The notes below the pieces were generated by a model. It did no database searches. It was not told the origin of the DNA and saw nothing but the letters and a program-made list of their open reading frames with translations. The position numbers were made by a program, and so were the translations under genes. DNA of 64,000 nucleotides from Streptomyces formicae (lineage in GTDB: Bacteria; Actinomycetota; Actinomycetes; Streptomycetales; Streptomycetaceae). Positions 5,013 to 26,519 of the stretch are shown here, in pieces. The number at the start of each line of letters is the position of its first letter. Position 1 is the first letter of the stretch. Location: positions 1 to 64,000 of the forward strand of contig NZ_CP071872.1 in the NCBI RefSeq assembly GCF_022647665.1, given 5' to 3'.

Positions 5013-6134
5013 ATGCATGTCACGCATCTGTCGCTGGCCGACTTCCGCTCGTACGCCCGGGTCGAGGTCCCGCTCGACCCGGGCGTCAGCGTGTTCGTGG
5101 GGGCGAACGGCCAGGGCAAGACGAATCTGGTCGAGGCCGTCGGCTATCTCGCGACCCTCGGCAGCCACCGGGTCGCGTCCGACGCTCCGCTGGTGCGGAT
5201 GGGGGCGGACCGGGCCGTCATCCGCGCGGCCGTCACACAGGGCGAGCGCTCCCAGCTGATCGAGCTGGAGCTCAATCCCGGCAGGGCGAACCGGGCGCGA
5301 ATCAACCGGTCGTCGCAGGTCAGGCCGCGCGACGTGCTCGGGATCGTACGGACCGTGCTGTTCGCGCCGGAGGATCTGGCGCTGGTCAAGGGCGATCCGG
5401 GCGAGCGGCGGCGCTTCCTGGACGAGCTGATCACGGCGCGCTCGCCGCGGATGGCGGGGGTGCGGTCGGACTACGAGCGAGTGCTCAAGCAGCGCAACAC
5501 GCTGCTGAAGTCGGCGGCGATGGCCCGGCGGCACGGCGGCCGCTCGATGGATCTGTCCACGCTCGACGTGTGGGACCAGCATCTGGCGCACGCGGGCGCG
5601 GAGCTGCTGGCGCGGCGGCTCGACCTGATCGCGGCGCTGCGGCCGCTGACCGACAAGGCGTACGAGCAGCTGGCGCCGGGCGGCGGGCCGGTCGCGCTGG
5701 AGTACCGCGGATCGGCCGGCGGTGACGGGCACACGCGCGACGAGCTGTACGAGCAGCTCATCGCCGCGCTCGCGGAGGCGCGCAAGCAGGAGATCGAGCG
5801 GGGCGTCACGCTCGTCGGGCCGCACCGCGACGAGCTGCTGCTGAAGCTGGGCGAGCTGCCGGCGAAGGGGTACGCGAGCCATGGCGAGTCCTGGTCGTAC
5901 GCGCTGGCGCTGCGGCTGGCCTCGTACGACCTGCTCAGGGCCGAGGGCAACGAGCCGGTGCTCGTCCTCGACGACGTCTTCGCCGAGCTGGACGCCCGTC
6001 GCCGGGAACGGCTCGCGGAACTGGTGGCTCCGGGCGAGCAGGTGCTGGTGACGGCGGCGGTGGACGACGACGTTCCGGGAGTGCTCGCGGGCACGCGGTA
6101 CGCCGTGGCGGACGGGGCGGTGGAGCGCGTATGA
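5013..6134 (+). CDS. recF: DNA replication and repair protein RecF
   Basis: RecF is an SMC-like ATPase that helps load RecA at gaps through RecOR. The 373-residue protein starts [19 protein letters not shown] and shows Walker [10 protein letters not shown] near residue 31. The ABC-type signature lies in the segment around [13 protein letters not shown], and Walker B is [12 protein letters not shown]. The frame is open from 4974, but the ATG at 5013 gives the family N-terminus and normal length. It overlaps the next gene by 4 bp (ATGA), implying translational coupling. Confidence 0.95.
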
Positions 6135-17001: not shown

Positions 17002-17074
17002 GGGGCCTTAGCTCAGTTGGTAGAGCGCTGTCTTTGCATGGCAGATGTCAGGGGTTCGACTCCCCTAGGCTCCA
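17002..17074 (+). tRNA. tRNA-Ala (TGC)
   Basis: Acceptor GGGGCCT pairs with AGGCTCC (one G·T), the anticodon loop is TTTGCAT with TGC at 17035–17037, and the T arm is AGGGG-TTCGACT-CCCCT. The discriminator is A and CCA is not encoded. The 3' end of this gene is duplicated further downstream (see the repeats), marking it as an integration site. Confidence 0.97.
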
Positions 17075-17144
17075 CCCGGTAAATGCCCTCTGGCCTGCGA
17101 AAACGCGGGTTCAGGGGGCATTTTTCGTGCCCGTCGGTGGGCGC
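17052..17144 (+). repeat. tRNA-Ala 3' end + terminator, copy 1 (candidate attL)
   Basis: This 93-bp stretch covers the T arm and acceptor of tRNA-Ala plus the downstream hairpin (atgccctctgg … tcagggggcat followed by TTTTT). It recurs at 24793–24885 with a single mismatch and in decayed form near 28840–28920. Weaker similarity to copy 2 continues to about 17,225. Copies that include a tRNA 3' end are typical of site-specific integration by tyrosine recombinases. Confidence 0.85.
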
Positions 17145-17280
17145 GGCGGTGCCCACCGGGAGTGGGGGAGCCCAGTGATCCCAAGGGGTTTGCTTGATCG
17201 TGTCTCCCCCGATGTTCCCCTAGGCCCCCAGCGAGAGTATTTGGGTTTCTGGTTTCCTACTTGTTTGACACACTGGGGGT

Positions 17281-17565
17281 ATGTCCGAGACGACGTACAA
17301 CATCGGTGAGGGGCCGGCGACGCGGGTCAGCCTCTCCCTGCCCGAGGGGACCGCGGAGGCCATCCGCGCCCGGGTTGGTAAGCGGGAGTTCTCCGCGTTC
17401 ATCGCCGCAGCCGTTGAACGGGAGCTGCGTGGCCAGGTGTTGGATGAGTACCTGGCGGACTACGAGAGCCGTAAGGGACCGGTCTCCGAGCAGGCGAGGC
17501 AGCGGGCGCGGCAGGTGTTCGACGAGGTGTTCGCGGAGGAAGCCCAGTGGCCCGCCGCAAGCTGA
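17281..17565 (+). CDS. Antitoxin-like protein (ribbon-helix-helix/CopG type)
   Basis: A 94-residue protein. The segment ATRVSLSLPEGTAEAIRARVGKREFSAFIAAAVERELR fits a ribbon-helix-helix DNA-binding fold (a beta strand followed by two helices). The charged helical tail (LDEYLADYESRKGPVSEQARQRARQVFDEVF) is where VapB-type antitoxins contact their toxin. It overlaps the PIN-domain gene by 19 bp, the usual arrangement of VapBC pairs. It is the first gene inside the island, next to tRNA-Ala. Confidence 0.8.
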   Translation: MSETTYNIGEGPATRVSLSLPEGTAEAIRARVGKREFSAFIAAAVERELRGQVLDEYLADYESRKGPVSEQARQRARQVFDEVFAEEAQWPAAS

Positions 17566-17960
17566 GTCACGAGGGAACGCTCGTCCTCGACAGCGAGGGA
17601 CTCTCCAAGCTGCTCGGCGATGACGAGACGGTGGTGGCCCTAGTCGCGGAGGCCCGGTCCCGTGGCATGGAGGTAGTGATCTGCGCGCTCACCATCATCG
17701 AGGCCGTGCACGCACGCACGAACAAGGCCCGCCTCAACTGGGTGCTGTCCGGCCTGCGCGCCGTCCCAGTGGGCGACGAGGAGGCGAAGGCGGCCTCGGC
17801 GCTGTTGATGGGGGCCGGGCTGCACGGTCACAAGTACGCCATCGACGCGGCTGTGGCCGAGGCTGCCCTGCGGCAGCAGCGCCCGGTGGTCATGCTGACC
17901 TCTGACATCGACGACATGGTCAAGCTGTGTGGTGGCCGGGTCCGGCTCGTTGCCGTGTGA
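17547..17960 (+). CDS. PIN-domain ribonuclease toxin (VapC-like)
   Basis: A 137-residue PIN-domain protein that would cleave RNA unless held by its antitoxin. Metal-binding acidic residues are visible in LVLDSEGLSKLL, in ALTIIEAVHAR, in YAIDAAVAEAAL and in LTSDIDDMVKLC. The GTG start at 17547 lies inside the end of the antitoxin gene, so the two are translationally coupled. The pair probably stabilises the element or acts in stress. Confidence 0.82.
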   Translation: MARRKLSHEGTLVLDSEGLSKLLGDDETVVALVAEARSRGMEVVICALTIIEAVHARTNKARLNWVLSGLRAVPVGDEEAKAASALLMGAGLHGHKYAIDAAVAEAALRQQRPVVMLTSDIDDMVKLCGGRVRLVAV

Positions 17961-19003: not shown

Positions 19004-19507
19004 ATGACAGCCGATCCTTTGGATACGGCCTGGCGGGTGCACGGCGCGTTGGTTGAGTGGACGGGGAAGGCGGATAGCAAAGCCGCGTTCGCCTTGACTC
19101 TGCAGTCGACGGGATTGGCGGTCGTCGCGGTGCTCGTGAGCACTCAGCGTGGCTTGAACCCGTCGGGCGGGGTAGCAGCGGTTGCGTTCCTGGTGATTGG
19201 GGCTGCCCTGCTCGCACTCGGCGCCGGGTTCGCCGTCGCCGCGGTGTCCCCGAGTCTCGGCATGGGGCAGGGAGGGCAGCGGCCTGTCGCTCGCGACGCG
19301 TTTCTGTACTTCGGGCATCTGCGCCTATGGGATCCCGGGGAGCTTGAGGCGACGCTGCGTCAGACGGATCCTCTGCCGTCGCTAACACGGCAGTTGGTAG
19401 TGATGAGTTCCATCGCGTGGGCTAAACATCGCCGGGTCCAGTGGTCCCTTACCTGCGGTGCGGCCGGGGTCGTATTCGTGGTGGTCTCTGTCGCTGCCGG
19501 GCAATGA
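19004..19507 (+). CDS. Pycsar effector-like transmembrane protein (PycTM / DUF5706-like)
   Basis: A 167-residue membrane protein. It begins with a helix ending ADSKAAFALTLQSTG, followed by membrane helices (LAVVAVLVS; VAAVAFLVIGAALLALGAGFAVAAV), a conserved loop RDAFLYFGHLRLWDP and a helix LTRQLVVMSSIAWAKHRRVQW, with a last span GAAGVVFVVVSVAAG. This pattern (DxKA-type start, YFGHL loop, QLxxMSxIAxxKHR before the last span) is that of the PycTM effector of Pycsar anti-phage systems, where a cyclic pyrimidine nucleotide triggers membrane damage. The family call comes from motif memory, not a search. Its neighbours, a cNMP-binding regulator and a nucleotide cyclase, fit this reading. Confidence 0.75.
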   Translation: MTADPLDTAWRVHGALVEWTGKADSKAAFALTLQSTGLAVVAVLVSTQRGLNPSGGVAAVAFLVIGAALLALGAGFAVAAVSPSLGMGQGGQRPVARDAFLYFGHLRLWDPGELEATLRQTDPLPSLTRQLVVMSSIAWAKHRRVQWSLTCGAAGVVFVVVSVAAGQ

Positions 19508-19558
19508 AATCCGGGCGGCCCGTGTACGGCTGACATCTTGCGAATTCGGGGGGGAGAC

Positions 19559-20254
19559 TTGAATTTTCGTGACATGGTTCCGGAGCAGGCGTGGCGCGCA
19601 CTGGTGGAACGCGGCAGAAGAGCTTTCTACAGGCGTGGCAGCGTCATTTACCGACAGGGGGAGGATGCCTCGTCCGTCGTTCTCCTTGAGGACGGGACCG
19701 TAAAGGTCCTGCAGGTGACCGAGGGTGGTTCCACTCTCACCCTGACGTTGCGAGGCCCAGGAGAGGTGCTCGGTGAGATGGGCGTCATCCTCGACCGCCC
19801 TCGCTCCGCGACGCTCAAGGCGGTCAGCCACTGCAGCGGGTCCGTGCTGGGGGCGCGTGTCTTCCTTGCCAGCCTTGACCGACTCGACCTGGTCCCTGCG
19901 GTCTACCGCCTCGCCGTCGACCGCATGCAGCACGTCGAGCAGTTGCGTACTGACCTTGTCAGCCTGCCCCCAGCCGCGCGCGTGGCACGCGTCATCCAGC
20001 ACCTCGCACTGGAGGTCGGGCGCCTGACGGCGGACGGAATCCTGGTCGAACTGGGCATGTCCCGCGAGGAATTGGCCGCCATGGCCGCGGTCGGGCGTTC
20101 GACAGCCGCGCCGGCACTAAAGCAGTTCCACGAACAAGGCGTACTCGACCTCGCCCGGACCCGGCTCGTCATCAGGGACATGGAGGCGTTGGAGGGCGCA
20201 GCTCGTGCGGTGGACGTCGATGGACCGGCAACGGCCGACAGACCGGACACGTGA
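19559..20254 (+). CDS. Crp/Fnr-family cyclic-nucleotide-binding transcriptional regulator
   Basis: A 231-residue protein with an N-terminal cNMP-binding barrel (FYRRGSVIYRQGEDASSVVLLEDGTVKV), a phosphate-binding-cassette-like GEMGVILDRPRSATLKA, and a C-terminal winged helix (LGMSREELAAMAAVGRSTAAPALKQF). The Glu and Arg expected to hold the ribose-phosphate are present. The start is not obvious: TTG at 19559 sits just behind a GGGGGGGAG site, and ATG at 19574 is a poorer choice. It lies 51 bp after the effector-like gene and 123 bp before the cyclase, so it probably senses the cyclase product. Confidence 0.85.
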   Translation: MNFRDMVPEQAWRALVERGRRAFYRRGSVIYRQGEDASSVVLLEDGTVKVLQVTEGGSTLTLTLRGPGEVLGEMGVILDRPRSATLKAVSHCSGSVLGARVFLASLDRLDLVPAVYRLAVDRMQHVEQLRTDLVSLPPAARVARVIQHLALEVGRLTADGILVELGMSREELAAMAAVGRSTAAPALKQFHEQGVLDLARTRLVIRDMEALEGAARAVDVDGPATADRPDT

Positions 20255-20377: not shown

Positions 20378-21181
20378 ATGAATCCATCCACTTCCGCTTC
20401 CGACTCCGCGGCTTATGCACCATGGGGCCGACTGTGGCCCTATCGGGCTGTCCTTGCAGTGGACGCACGAAACTTCAGCAGCCATACCAGCACGGTCATG
20501 CAACAGATCAACGCCGACGTCCAGGAGGTGCTGGACCGATCACTCGCCGCCATCGGCCTGAGCGGGCATTGGGAGCGCCGCCACTTCCCACAGCACACGG
20601 GTGACGGCTATGTCGCGGGAATGAACGCCGAGGTGCTTCCCGCGCTGGTCGGAAGCTTCCCCGAGGCTGTGCGAGCCGAGCTGTGGCAGTGGCGGCGTGC
20701 GAACCCAAGGCTTCAGCCGCTGCAGCTTCGCGTGAGTGTCCACGTGGGGCCGCTGCCCGCGGACGGGCTCGGTGTGCCGATGGTGCACACTCACCGCCTA
20801 CTGGACGACCAGGCGTTGCGGGACCTACTAGCTCGGGCCGACCCCGAGGTCACCAATACGGCAGTGATCGTCTCCGAGCGCGTGTATGAGGACGTCTTCG
20901 AGAGTGGCCTCGCGACCGGGGCCACGGTAGCCAGTCAGTTCGCCCAACGGTTCGTACGGGTCAAGACGTTCGCCCGGCCCGCCCGGCTCCACGTACCCGG
21001 CCTGGACTGGGGCCTCGCGGACCCGAGCATCTTCGAGGTGCCCGAGGGGCCGCACCCGGGCCCGGCTCGCCCGCCACAGCCGACCGCGGGCGGCGCGTCA
21101 TTTCACCAGTACGGCCCTGGTGGAACGCAGGGAATCACCAACAACGTTCGTAACGAGTTCGGGGGAGGACAGGGGGCATGA
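20378..21181 (+). CDS. Class III nucleotide cyclase-like protein
   Basis: A 267-residue cytosolic protein with a single cyclase homology domain (about residues 20–205). The likely metal-binding aspartates are D29 in VLAVDARNFSS and D76 in HTGDGYVAGM. LRVSVHVGPL is the family's LRxGIHxGP strand, and R140 in HTHRLLDD sits at the transition-state arginine position. The substrate-choosing positions do not look like a standard adenylate cyclase, so ATP, GTP or a pyrimidine nucleotide are all possible. The last ~27 residues form a Gly/Asn-rich tail (SFHQYGPGGTQGITNNVRN) that resembles a stretch in the next protein. The stop overlaps that gene by 4 bp. Confidence 0.75.
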   Translation: MNPSTSASDSAAYAPWGRLWPYRAVLAVDARNFSSHTSTVMQQINADVQEVLDRSLAAIGLSGHWERRHFPQHTGDGYVAGMNAEVLPALVGSFPEAVRAELWQWRRANPRLQPLQLRVSVHVGPLPADGLGVPMVHTHRLLDDQALRDLLARADPEVTNTAVIVSERVYEDVFESGLATGATVASQFAQRFVRVKTFARPARLHVPGLDWGLADPSIFEVPEGPHPGPARPPQPTAGGASFHQYGPGGTQGITNNVRNEFGGGQGA

Positions 21182-23528
21182 GCGAGGCTACGACACCGAA
21201 GGGACAGGGATCCTGGGACCGAAGTGGGGCGGACCAGAGGCCTGCGCCTTGGAAGGGGCGCGAGGAGATGGAGTCCCGGCGGGCGGCAGGTACGTCCGAC
21301 GACAGGACGGTCGTTACCGTCTCGGCGGACATGCCGGGCCCCCGCTCGGCACCCCTGGATATCAACGGGGGCAGCTCTGAGGCCGAGAATCCCCCAGCCG
21401 AACGCGAGCCCAATAGCTCGTCGATCGGGCCCGTGACCGTGATGCCGGCGCCGGACAACGATGCCGGACACGCGAACGGCGAACGGTCTCACACCACGCG
21501 CGAGAACGCCATCACACCGCCCGGCACGGATCCGGTCCGCGACGAGCCGCCCACGATCGTAGGAGCAGCCTCCGGTGAAGCGCCGCGATACGACCAGCAC
21601 AACCACGGACCGGGCCAGGCCTACCAGGCCGCCTATCTCTACGTCACCAACTCCTATAACGGGGAGTGCGTGCGTGAACACCCCGTTCCGGAAGCCGACT
21701 TGATCGTCAGCACGGACGCCCGGTACGTTCCCCCGCGCGACAACGACCGGCTGAAGCAGGCCGAGCGGTGCCTGGCCGCATACGGCGTCGTAGTCTTGAG
21801 CGCCGCGCCGGGAAGCGGGCGCAGGACCACGGCACTGCGGCTGCTTTCCACCGCAGCCGTCGAACCGTTCGGACCACCACTCGAACTGGTCGATCTGGAA
21901 CCGGAGTGGTCCGAGGTCAGGGTCGGTCAGCTGCCCAAGCTAACGGGCCGGGGCTACGTCCTCGACCTGACGGAGCTCCCGACCGAGGAGCCGCACGAGC
22001 GGATGCGTGCGTTGCTCAGCGACTACGGCCGCGAGGGTGTGAGCAAGGGATGGCGCCTCGTCATCCTGGCCGCCCCCCAGACGTGGCGCGGGCGTTGGCT
22101 CGACGCCGCCGCAGACTTCGTCGTACCACTTCCATCGCCCGACGCCCGAAACTTGGCAAAGCGGGAACTGGCGGCGCACGACGCCACCGACCGCGTGGCG
22201 TGGGTCGACCACGAGGTGTTCTCTGACATCTGGGCCTCAAATCCGCCGGCGCACGAAGCCTGCCGCCTCGCTAGGATCGTGGTGGACGCGAAACATCCGT
22301 TCGGCCGTGTACCCGACCGAGAGTTCCTGGCACGAATCCTCGACGAGTTCCAGGGCTGGCGCGACCACATCGAGCGCTTGCTGAACGAGGAACCCCGAGG
22401 CCAGGGGCAGCCTAGTCTCCTCGCCAACCGAGCCACCGTGTGGGCGGGCGCGCTGCTGCACGGCGGCGAACCCCGCTCGGTGCTGAAAGCTGCGGACACG
22501 TTGATGGGCACCCTGGAAATCCCGCGCGCACCCAGGGACGTCCTGGGTGACGCGACCTCGTCCCAGCGACTCGACGCGGCGAGCCTAACCCCGCGCGGCG
22601 GCCACATTTTCCACGACGAGGACAAGCACGCCCTGGCGCCCGCCATTCTGGACAACCTCTGGACGGAGTTCCCCACCCAGCGCTCGCTGTGCAACACCTG
22701 GGCCGTGTCAGTCGCCGCCGACCCGGACATCCCCGAGGATGACGCGCGGATCGTCACGCACCGCCTCCTCCACCTGGCCACGACCCGCCACGACGGCGCC
22801 ATCCTCGACGCCCTGGCAACCGGACTCGAGGGCTCACGGCGTCAGCTGGCCACCGACGCCCTGACCACGGCGGCACTCGACCCGAACATCGGCGCATACG
22901 TGCGGCAGCGCCTCTACACCTGGTCCCGCAAGGCCTCGTCATCCCATACGCTGCAACTCGTCATCGCCGTCTGCGGCGGCCCCCTGGGGCGTGCCGAGCC
23001 CGGCATTGCCCTGACCAGGCTTCGCTGGGCCACCGAACGCAGTCCTCTGGGAACCCCATCCGCGGTCCGAGCCTTCAAGACGCTCATCATCGAACATCCA
23101 ACCGAGGTCCGCGCTGCGACAAGATCCTGGTTCGACAAAGTCGACCTCAACGAGACACTGTCCGTCTTCTTCGCGATCGCGTCCAGCGACGAGGGCGCAG
23201 CACTCCTGCTGAACGAGGTCGATGACGACACCGGACGCGACCGGTTCGTACGTGCCTGGCAACAGTTGCTCCTAAAGGAGGACTCTCGAGAAGTAGTGGA
23301 CCAGCAGATCACCCGGTGGGGCGAGCTCGCCGACCAGGACTTCCTCCCCGGGAGAAGTTGGTCGACTTGCTCGCCGATGTGTACGAGCCGGACGTCCAGC
23401 GGAGAGGCCTCAACCGGTTCTACGACGACAGCCCTGGCTTTCTGGACTCCTTCTGGGGACACGTGCTCGGCGAGGCGATCCAGCGCCGCAAGCAGCGCCG
23501 CGAAGGGGAACTGGCGCGCCGGCCATGA
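21178..23528 (+). CDS. STAND-like P-loop protein, carries a one-base frameshift
   Basis: A large protein of about 783 residues if the frame is repaired. Residues 1–135 are disordered; about 136–160 hold a short motif (YDQHNHGPGQAYQAAYLYV) like the cyclase tail. A P-loop follows near 208–217 (SAAPGSGRRTT) with Arg where Walker A has Lys, then YVLDLTELP and RLVILAAP strands. The rest is helical and repeat-like. As read, the frame shifts near 23,345 (…DQDFLP then GRSWSTC). Adding one C in the CCCC run restores REKLVDLLADVYEPDVQRRG to a stop at 23,528 that overlaps the next gene's ATG. Unrepaired, it runs to 23,736 through the next gene. This is either a sequencing error or a real lesion. The role is probably signal sensing or scaffolding. 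Confidence 0.7.
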
Positions 23529-24226
23529 GACGACTTCCCTGGCGGTATCAGCGCACCCGCATCACATGCACGTGGCCCTCAGCGATACCGGGCATCCGGT
23601 TCACCGCGGTGGGCAAGGTCATGTACGTGCCGTCCGCCGAGCTGCGGGCCAGGGGCCGGGCGGCCGGGAACGCCGCGGCCCGGCTCGCGCTCGACACGCT
23701 CGCAGAGTCCGTCACCAGTCGACACCGTCCGGTTGACCTATTGGCAGCACAGGAACAAATGTCCTTGCGCACTGCGGAGTTGACCGAAGCGGAGGGACAC
23801 GAGCACGTGCACGTCAGGGCACGATTGATCCTCACCCTGGCACCGGAGGACCAAGCCCGCGCGCAGGCGTACGAGGACGCCCTGCGCGCTGAGCGTCTAC
23901 GCCACGCACAGGAACGCGACCGCCTCGCGTATCTGCGCGCCACGGTTTTGGCCGAACCGACGATGGCGCGTACATGGTGGCTTGACCGTCAGCGTGATCA
24001 GCTGGCCGAACTCACCTGGAAGGAGTTCAACGAGAAGGTACTGCCCACAGTCGCCGACCCCGACGACGCCCATGCCCGCGCCCTGAGTGTCGCCCAGGTC
24101 CTCGCAGAGGTTGTCGAACAGCTCGGAGACGACACGGACCGCCACAAGCAGTTCGTCGCGACGGCGCGTTGGGTGCTGCGGGAGATGGGATGGGACGCGA
24201 CGGCGGAGCGACTATCTGAGTTCTAA
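23525..24226 (+). CDS. Unknown helical protein coupled to the P-loop gene
   Basis: A 233-residue protein with no signal peptide. A short beta-rich N-terminus (RYQRTRITCTW … FTAVGKVMYVPS) is followed by long charged helices (LLAAQEQMSLRTAELTEAEG; ARAQAYEDALRAERLRHAQERDRLAYLRATVL). The layout, a beta-containing head, an alternating strand such as VHVRARLILTL and a coiled coil, is faintly reminiscent of SPFH/band-7 proteins, but I cannot confirm it. Its ATG overlaps the repaired stop of the P-loop gene (ATGA), so the two are probably made in fixed proportion. It is the last gene of the five-gene locus. Confidence 0.7.
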   Translation: MRRLPWRYQRTRITCTWPSAIPGIRFTAVGKVMYVPSAELRARGRAAGNAAARLALDTLAESVTSRHRPVDLLAAQEQMSLRTAELTEAEGHEHVHVRARLILTLAPEDQARAQAYEDALRAERLRHAQERDRLAYLRATVLAEPTMARTWWLDRQRDQLAELTWKEFNEKVLPTVADPDDAHARALSVAQVLAEVVEQLGDDTDRHKQFVATARWVLREMGWDATAERLSEF

Positions 24227-25648: not shown

Positions 25649-26040
25649 TCATGGGAAACGGCGTCGGAGCAGGGTCATGAGGATTATGCGGTGGCGGAGC
25701 AGCGGGACCTCTGCGTGGCCGGCCATGATCCGCTTCTGGAGTACCAGGTCGGTGATGCGGCCTTCGTTGACGCCGGAGTTGAACGGGGTGGTGATGCCTT
25801 GCACGACCGCGGGCTGGTCCTCGCGGATAGCGTTGGCCAGGTGGCCAGGTGGCCAGGTGGCCAGGTGGCCAGGTGGCCAGGTGGCCAGGTGGCCACCTGG
25901 CCAGGGCGGGGAGGCGGGAGGTCGCGAGTTGCTCGAGCCAGTGCGCAAGCAAGGTGAGGGTCTGTCCAATCAACGGCTGATCTTGGTTGTTGAGGTGTCA
26001 GTGGGTGGGGGGGTGAGAGGCGTCCTTCGAAGGCGATCTG
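25649..26040 (-). pseudogene. ISL3-type transposase C-terminal relic interrupted by a tandem repeat
   Basis: The complement encodes WLEQLATSRLPALA and, beyond a repeat array, NAIREDQPAVVQGITTPFNS and VNEGRITDLVLQKRIMAG, ending LLRRRFP-stop at 25,649. This is the C-terminal end of an ISL3-like transposase with its typical FNSGxNEGxxxxxxLxKR motif. The two halves are in different frames because an 8-bp repeat has expanded between them. The N-terminal domain is absent. Confidence 0.6.
25835..25890. repeat. Seven tandem copies of the 8-bp unit GGCCAGGT
   Basis: Seven perfect, uninterrupted copies are followed by GGCCACCTGGCC, which is the unit meeting its own inverse. Each junction creates the palindrome TGGCCA. 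It lies within the ISL3 transposase relic and has the look of slippage expansion. Confidence 0.95.
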
Positions 26041-26048
26041 GAAGGCGT

Positions 26049-26519
26049 TCACACCTCGGCAAGGTGGGCGGATATCTCCCCATGGGTCAGTTCCTTCGCG
26101 GAGAGCGAGAGCACCATCTCGTCGACGCCGGTCAGGCGCTTCCGCCGCTTCTTGACGATCTTCGGTTCGAAGGAGCCGCCACGGTCACAGGGCACTGTTA
26201 TCTCCACCGGGCCGACGTCGGTCAGCACCGTCTTGGAACCTTTGCCATTGCGGGAGTCGCCGCCGTTCTTGCCAGCCGCATCGTGCTTGTCATAGCCAAG
26301 ATGGTCGGTGATCTTGCCCTCCAGGGCGGACTCCAGCAGCCGCTTGGTCAGCTGCCGCGGCAGCCCGCCTTCACCGGTCAGCCGCAGACGTTCGGCCTGA
26401 GCGCGGCTCACCAGCTCGTCGATCAACTGATCGTCCACGGCCTTCTCCGACGCGGCTTTCTTGGACTCAATGGCCCCGGACTCCGACACGTTCTCACTGG
26501 TCATCGACGCATCTTCCAT
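26049..26519 (-). pseudogene. IS256-family (Mutator-type) transposase, N-terminal fragment
   Basis: About 156 residues: RLLESALEGKITDHLGYDKHD, the linker GGDSRNGKGSKTV, GPVEITVPCDRGGSFEPKIV, and LSLSAKELTHGEISAHLAEV, which is where IS256 transposases normally continue with YGAEVS… Here a stop follows at once and the sequence joins the ISL3 relic. The catalytic DDE domain is missing, so it cannot transpose. Confidence 0.75.

Follow-up and report, generated by a model that had tools for sequence, protein, structure and literature searches.

BASS motifs tie NLRs to Bell effectors, less often to CHAT or TIR, in a layout in which the genes overlap and the motif lies at the C-terminus of the effector and at the N-terminus of the sensor (PMC7889193). 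BASS1–10 (Dyrka et al. 2020) are taken here as recounted in PMC7889193 and PMC8086366, and the outcome of bacterial amyloid-NLR signalling is still to be explored (PMC7889193). The EAD conflict systems use homotypic modules to bring effectors, cNMP cyclases among them, to NTPase cores (PMC7159879, PMC8195603).

The window examined in the current study (64,000 nt of Streptomyces formicae) carries a module of five + strand genes that shares features with each of these systems. It comprises a PycTM-type membrane protein, the predicted effector (nt 19004–19507; Pfam PF18967, PADLOC PycTM), a Crp/Fnr-like regulator with a cyclic-nucleotide-binding domain and an HTH (nt 19538–20254; PF00027, PF13545), a class III nucleotidyl cyclase-like protein of 267 aa (nt 20378–21181; AF2, Foldseek, VIA and alignment), a predicted AAA+/STAND-type P-loop NTPase with a helical-repeat C-terminus (nt 21178–23529; AF2, VIA and Foldseek), and a conserved downstream gene of 233 aa (nt 23525–24226); 26 of 80 homologous loci have a homologue of this last gene after the STAND gene. 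The start of the P-loop ORF at nt 21178 overlaps the cyclase stop (4 bp, ATGA), and the gap between the cyclase and STAND genes is likewise −4 in most homologous loci. Upstream of the module, within nt 17002–17960, a tRNA-Ala is followed by a pair of small genes (nt 17281–17960) that look RHH-like and PIN-like by eye, without Pfam support.

Likenesses to BASS systems are the adjacent or overlapping genes, the placing of a motif at the effector C-terminus and the sensor N-terminus, the many sequence-diverse motif families, and the occurrence in filamentous actinobacteria. The difference lies in the effector, which is a nucleotidyl cyclase and not Bell, CHAT or TIR. No cyclase was found as a BASS-type partner in the BASS literature searched, Dyrka et al. 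2020 itself being outside that search, and a cyclase as motif partner is provisionally regarded as new to BASS-type systems. With Pycsar (PMC11224242) the locus shares a class III-type cyclase, a PycTM effector gene and an adjoining cyclic-nucleotide-binding protein, but the cyclase gave no match to the PADLOC PycC models up to E 0.5, a STAND sensor and a paired motif are present, and the conserved receptor is a Crp-like DNA-binding regulator. The EAD systems (Kaur et al. 2020, 2021) are similar in their homotypic recruitment, cyclases, NTPase cores and multicellular bacterial hosts; EADs, however, are small, folded and mostly alpha-helical, and homotypic EAD domains were set aside as a reading of the locus because the stretch that matches here is short, about 20 residues, and disordered. 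RHIM and the fungal PP and sigma motifs are, like those described below, short and G/N/Q-rich, and some of the tails are similar to them, but homology is not established and the receptor and effector types differ.

The cyclase is without a match in Pfam, PADLOC or NCBIfam. Its AF2 model (residues 1–228, pLDDT 87) matches class III cyclases at E 4.8e-8 in Foldseek and at a Z of about 16 in VIA (154–172 residues), and as modelled it has the class III nucleotidyl cyclase fold. Two residues, D29 and D76, corresponding to the two metal-binding aspartates of class III, are invariant in the alignment of homologues, as is an arginine that may be that of the transition-state Asn/Arg pair. The residue four positions before this arginine is Asn in 70 of 101 sequences and Val in 28, the window cyclase having Val. 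The DUF2652 cyclase-like family was also considered and was dropped, as the protein lacks a Pfam match; Streptomyces, moreover, goes unmentioned in PMC4886424.

The AF2 model of the P-loop protein (pLDDT 84) matches AAA+ folds (VIA Z about 9) and the Avs5 filament 9nc9 (Z 8.3 over 20–592, 384 aligned, rmsd 26.5), and NLRP7 and NLRP3 are among its top Foldseek matches (E 1e-3 to 2e-3). Pfam nSTAND3 scores 16.4 bits, below the cut-off of 27.2. The protein can be modelled as an AAA+/STAND-type NTPase fold with helical repeats, and it is to this level, and no further, that the NLR-like partner proposed in the initial annotation is supported. Relative to L032, one of the nearest relatives, the reading frame appears to slip near nt 23340 (23335–23355), because of a sequencing error or because the sensor gene is broken.

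That annotation, made from the window only, had drawn attention to two similar stretches, one in the cyclase tail and one near the N-terminus of the P-loop protein, as a possible homotypic docking pair. Both are present and in frame. The cyclase-side motif, SFHQYGPGGTQGITNNVRNEFGG (nt 21098–21166, +), is given by the in-frame translation and by the motif model; the sensor-side motif, YDQHNHGPGQAYQAAYLYVTN (nt 21589–21651, +), is likewise in the translation, is hit by the cyclase-tail profile and aligns with the motif sites of homologues. The latter stretch is where it was said to be, but slightly offset, at residues 138–158 rather than 137–155. The cyclase does not end with its motif, as had been stated, since ten further residues follow it in the C-terminal sequence (...GGASFHQYGPGGTQGITNNVRNEFGGGQGA). 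Both stretches do lie outside the folded domains: the cyclase model stops at residue 228, short of the motif, and residues 131–158 of the P-loop protein, the first 28 modelled and containing the motif, have a pLDDT below 50 and are disordered.

Taken by itself, the window pair is weak evidence of matching. The last 30 aa of the cyclase align to the P-loop N-terminus with a score of 33 (shuffles 24.1, sd 3.9; P=0.034), best on residues 141–162 of that protein, and with the full cyclase tail the own partner ranks 11 among 29 (Z 1.2). Homologues confirm the site. A profile of the cyclase tails of other clade members picks out residues 142–150 in the window P-loop protein, where none of 200 shuffles did as well, and the best alignments in the nearest relatives, L032 (P=0.14) and L033 (P=0.15), fall at the corresponding place; a profile from the tails of the window, L032 and L033 only was too thin to recover their own sensors. 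When the window genome was scanned with the motif model, the cyclase motif was found with an E of about 5e-6, this copy having been in the training set. The P-loop copy was not recovered at E<5 by the model, which was built from cyclase tails only, and the sensor copy is therefore diverged. The window holds a diverged member of the family, whose sensor gene may be broken (see above).

Relatives of the cyclase were detected in 57 of 150 genomes in a genus-level scan. At the level of species genomes, scanning yielded 80 loci, with flanks of up to 6 kb, from Streptomyces, Kitasatospora, Saccharopolyspora, Micromonospora, Salinispora, Nocardiopsis, Amycolatopsis, Actinoplanes and others. Across about 100 homologous loci in filamentous Actinobacteria, the C-terminal tail of the cyclase and the N-terminal linker of the P-loop protein are mostly motif-matched, and the motif differs strongly among subfamilies while agreeing inside each locus. 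Examples (tail / linker) are L003 (SFSHTGEHGIQAYNHFGG / RFSHSGEHGIQAYNLHLNG), L074 (NSYTFHGSGFVHGGTGNQYN / NSYVFDGPGFVHGGTGDQYN), L058 (NYGQVVGGGTVHGGMHQSF / NVGQLVTGGTVNGGVHQTF), L008 (NRGFLNNGSVEGGQH / NRGFLNISDLVRGGQH), L054 (NDGQVATTVESMTQ / NSGQVASRVGRDMVQ) and L025 (VDARGAVFGFGSA / VDASGAAFGFGAA). The own pairs of L018, L022 and L064 show no clear match.

This agreement was quantified as the sum of own-pair similarity after subtraction of row and column means, with 20,000 permutations. Among 29 representative loci (<75% core identity) own pairs averaged 57.9 and swapped pairs 35.5, and among 13 representatives at <60% identity the values were 57.1 and 35.1; none of the 20,000 permutations was as good in either set. 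Clade B by itself (15 representatives) gave 65.7 for own and 42.0 for swapped pairs (0/20,000, z 6.0), and clade A, to which the window belongs (7 representatives), was borderline (z 1.8, 894/20,000 as good). The representatives are not fully independent, and these numbers therefore show an effect and not an exact probability. Two controls, one pairing the tail with the part of the sensor that follows Walker A and one using the clade A tail minus its last 36 aa, gave no signal (z about 0 in each). The expectation that homologous pairs would keep the motif and co-vary in it is strongly borne out by the permutations and by the genome scans (see below). The cyclase and the STAND-type sensor are joined by a real, co-varying motif pair, and there is good support for the idea that the two stretches form a matched pair for homotypic docking, because the motif is kept and co-varies across homologues.

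In the mechanism favoured here, the cyclase tail and the sensor linker would each supply one half of a motif for matched, homotypic interaction. On detection of a trigger the AAA+/STAND-type sensor would oligomerise, and its clustered N-terminal motifs would seed an amyloid-type, beta-rich (BASS/RHIM-like) assembly into which cyclase tails are drawn. Class III cyclases work as dimers, and the gathered chains could form active ones. The cyclic nucleotide would then have two readers: the neighbouring Crp-like protein, which would regulate genes, and, in loci that have it, the PycTM membrane effector, which would cause growth arrest or cell death. The data suggest a Pycsar-like, immune-type and presumably anti-phage circuit, with a BASS-like homotypic motif allowing a STAND sensor to dock onto the cyclase and switch it on; amyloid-type docking with cyclase activation is the putative leading mechanism. 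The complete chain, from STAND sensor through amyloid-type motif docking and the cyclase to the Crp-like protein and PycTM, is considered somewhat probable. More tentatively, and at a little under even expectation, the loci may represent a widespread and undescribed circuit of filamentous Actinobacteria, with STAND sensor, co-evolving amyloid motif, cyclase and Crp-like/PycTM readout.

Instead of forming an amyloid, the matched motifs might pair as short beta strands in a discrete complex, with no templated fibre. This reading is the less likely one, though it carries some weight: covariation speaks of pairing specificity only and says nothing on structure, and the motifs are short (about 17–25 residues) and highly diverse among types. 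The layout, the composition and the similarity to two aggregating signalling peptides indirectly favour the amyloid kind over a discrete complex. G/N/Q residues make up more of the motif than of the remainder of the tail (0.33 vs 0.17), and charged residues less (0.14 vs 0.27); the motif is also proline-depleted and His-enriched. Tails and linkers, each as a set, were compared with peptides from PMC8086366 using 300 shuffles. For the aggregating archaeal peptide AEB69175, only 4 (tails) and 9 (linkers) of 300 shuffles were as good, and for the aggregating fungal sigma peptide 8 and 1; the window tail (PGGTQGITNNVRNEFGGG) resembles sigma (PGGTQNINKGGNEVSGG) with a Z of 2.9. The non-aggregating RDW70414 showed no resemblance to either set (170 and 167 of 300). 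Nor was there significant similarity to ORT49035, a BASS3 peptide and the one peptide of BASS1–10 with which the window-clade motif was compared (75 and 47 of 300), which lends something to the discrete complex. Since related loci are not independent, the peptide resemblance is suggestive only.

Whole-genome scans bear on a further reading, in which a third factor reads both motifs, or each self-assembles, and the match reflects a common target. The scan models were built from cyclase tails only, so that the cyclase tails found were in or near the training set. The adjacent sensor linker was matched in three clade A genomes (G098, G130 and G045, E about 3e-5) and, in clade B, in G135 (1.5e-4), G113 (1.6e-4), G062 (1.1e-5), G022 (0.015) and G107 (0.45). 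In G062 there is a third site (E 3.4e-9), in a short ORF directly before a second STAND gene, which has its own copy of the motif. A second, again motif-bearing, STAND gene is found in eight loci in total, and the short ORF upstream of it carries the motif where read; the two may possibly represent an adaptor and a second sensor. Such an adaptor could be the third factor in these clade B loci, but none of the other genomes scanned, that of the window included, has a third motif site reaching significance, and a common target seems improbable as the general cause of the match. The second STAND genes lie at 6096–8649 in L128 and at about +4.0 to +6.4 kb in L090, L110, L104, L108, L098, L096 and L086. 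Cyclase tails of clade B (e.g. L072 and L108) have extra G-D-x-V-x-G-N/D-K repeats after the docking motif (AGDYVGGNKSGTVHGNQGDTVHGDK), possibly a second beta-forming element.

Five loci are without a detected STAND gene. In L088 and L106 both the STAND gene and the motif are missing, the next ORF of L069 contains a motif-like match, the tail of L067 retains a RHIM-like core (SVLQVGQARDIGF) although a search of 6 kb revealed no STAND gene, and L077 is cut off by the contig end.

An old duplication or gene conversion might explain why the two stretches resemble each other, without any interaction between the proteins. The same codon is used at 60% of matched residues, slightly above the 52% expected, but this is far below the rate of recent copying, so that recent gene conversion is disfavoured and no recent DNA copying is indicated; the matching also persists over deep divergence and is confined to the motif stretches, and an origin of this kind is very unlikely. 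Chance resemblance of low-complexity linkers, to which the rank and Z of the window pair might point, is refuted for the family by the permutation tests and whole-genome scans and is scarcely credible; for the window pair considered apart from its relatives, it may still hold.

A cyclic nucleotide is the likely output of the favoured circuit, because a Crp-like gene with its phosphate-binding pattern is kept in most loci and PycTM in about half of them. The window Crp-like protein matches PF00027 (E 1.8e-16) and PF13545 (E 1.3e-12), 78 of 80 loci have a homologue just before the cyclase gene, and the GE..R.A phosphate-cassette pattern is present in 73 of the 80 Crp-like ORFs examined. The window PycTM matches PF18967 (E 3e-19; 69.9 bits, cut-off 27.2) and PADLOC PycTM (E 3.1e-34). 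By profile search of the fetched flanks, 43 of 80 homologous loci have a PycTM gene, which lies on the upstream side in the clade of the window and on the downstream side elsewhere; the other 37 have none within these flanks.

If the proposed circuit is correct, it would be an amyloid signalosome with a cyclic-nucleotide output, joining the principles of BASS and Pycsar. The literature searched offered no explanation for the activation of a Pycsar-like cyclase, and the co-evolving motif pair offers a concrete, swappable handle on both this step and the signalling outcome. With their many private types, the motifs would also make up a naturally occurring collection of docking pairs that are orthogonal to one another. 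Downstream of the module, the window carries nine copies of an 8-bp tandem repeat (TGGCCAGG, nt 25834–25905), and these are adjoined by a fragment of a Mutator-family transposase (nt 26049–26519, − strand; PF00872, E 2.3e-23).
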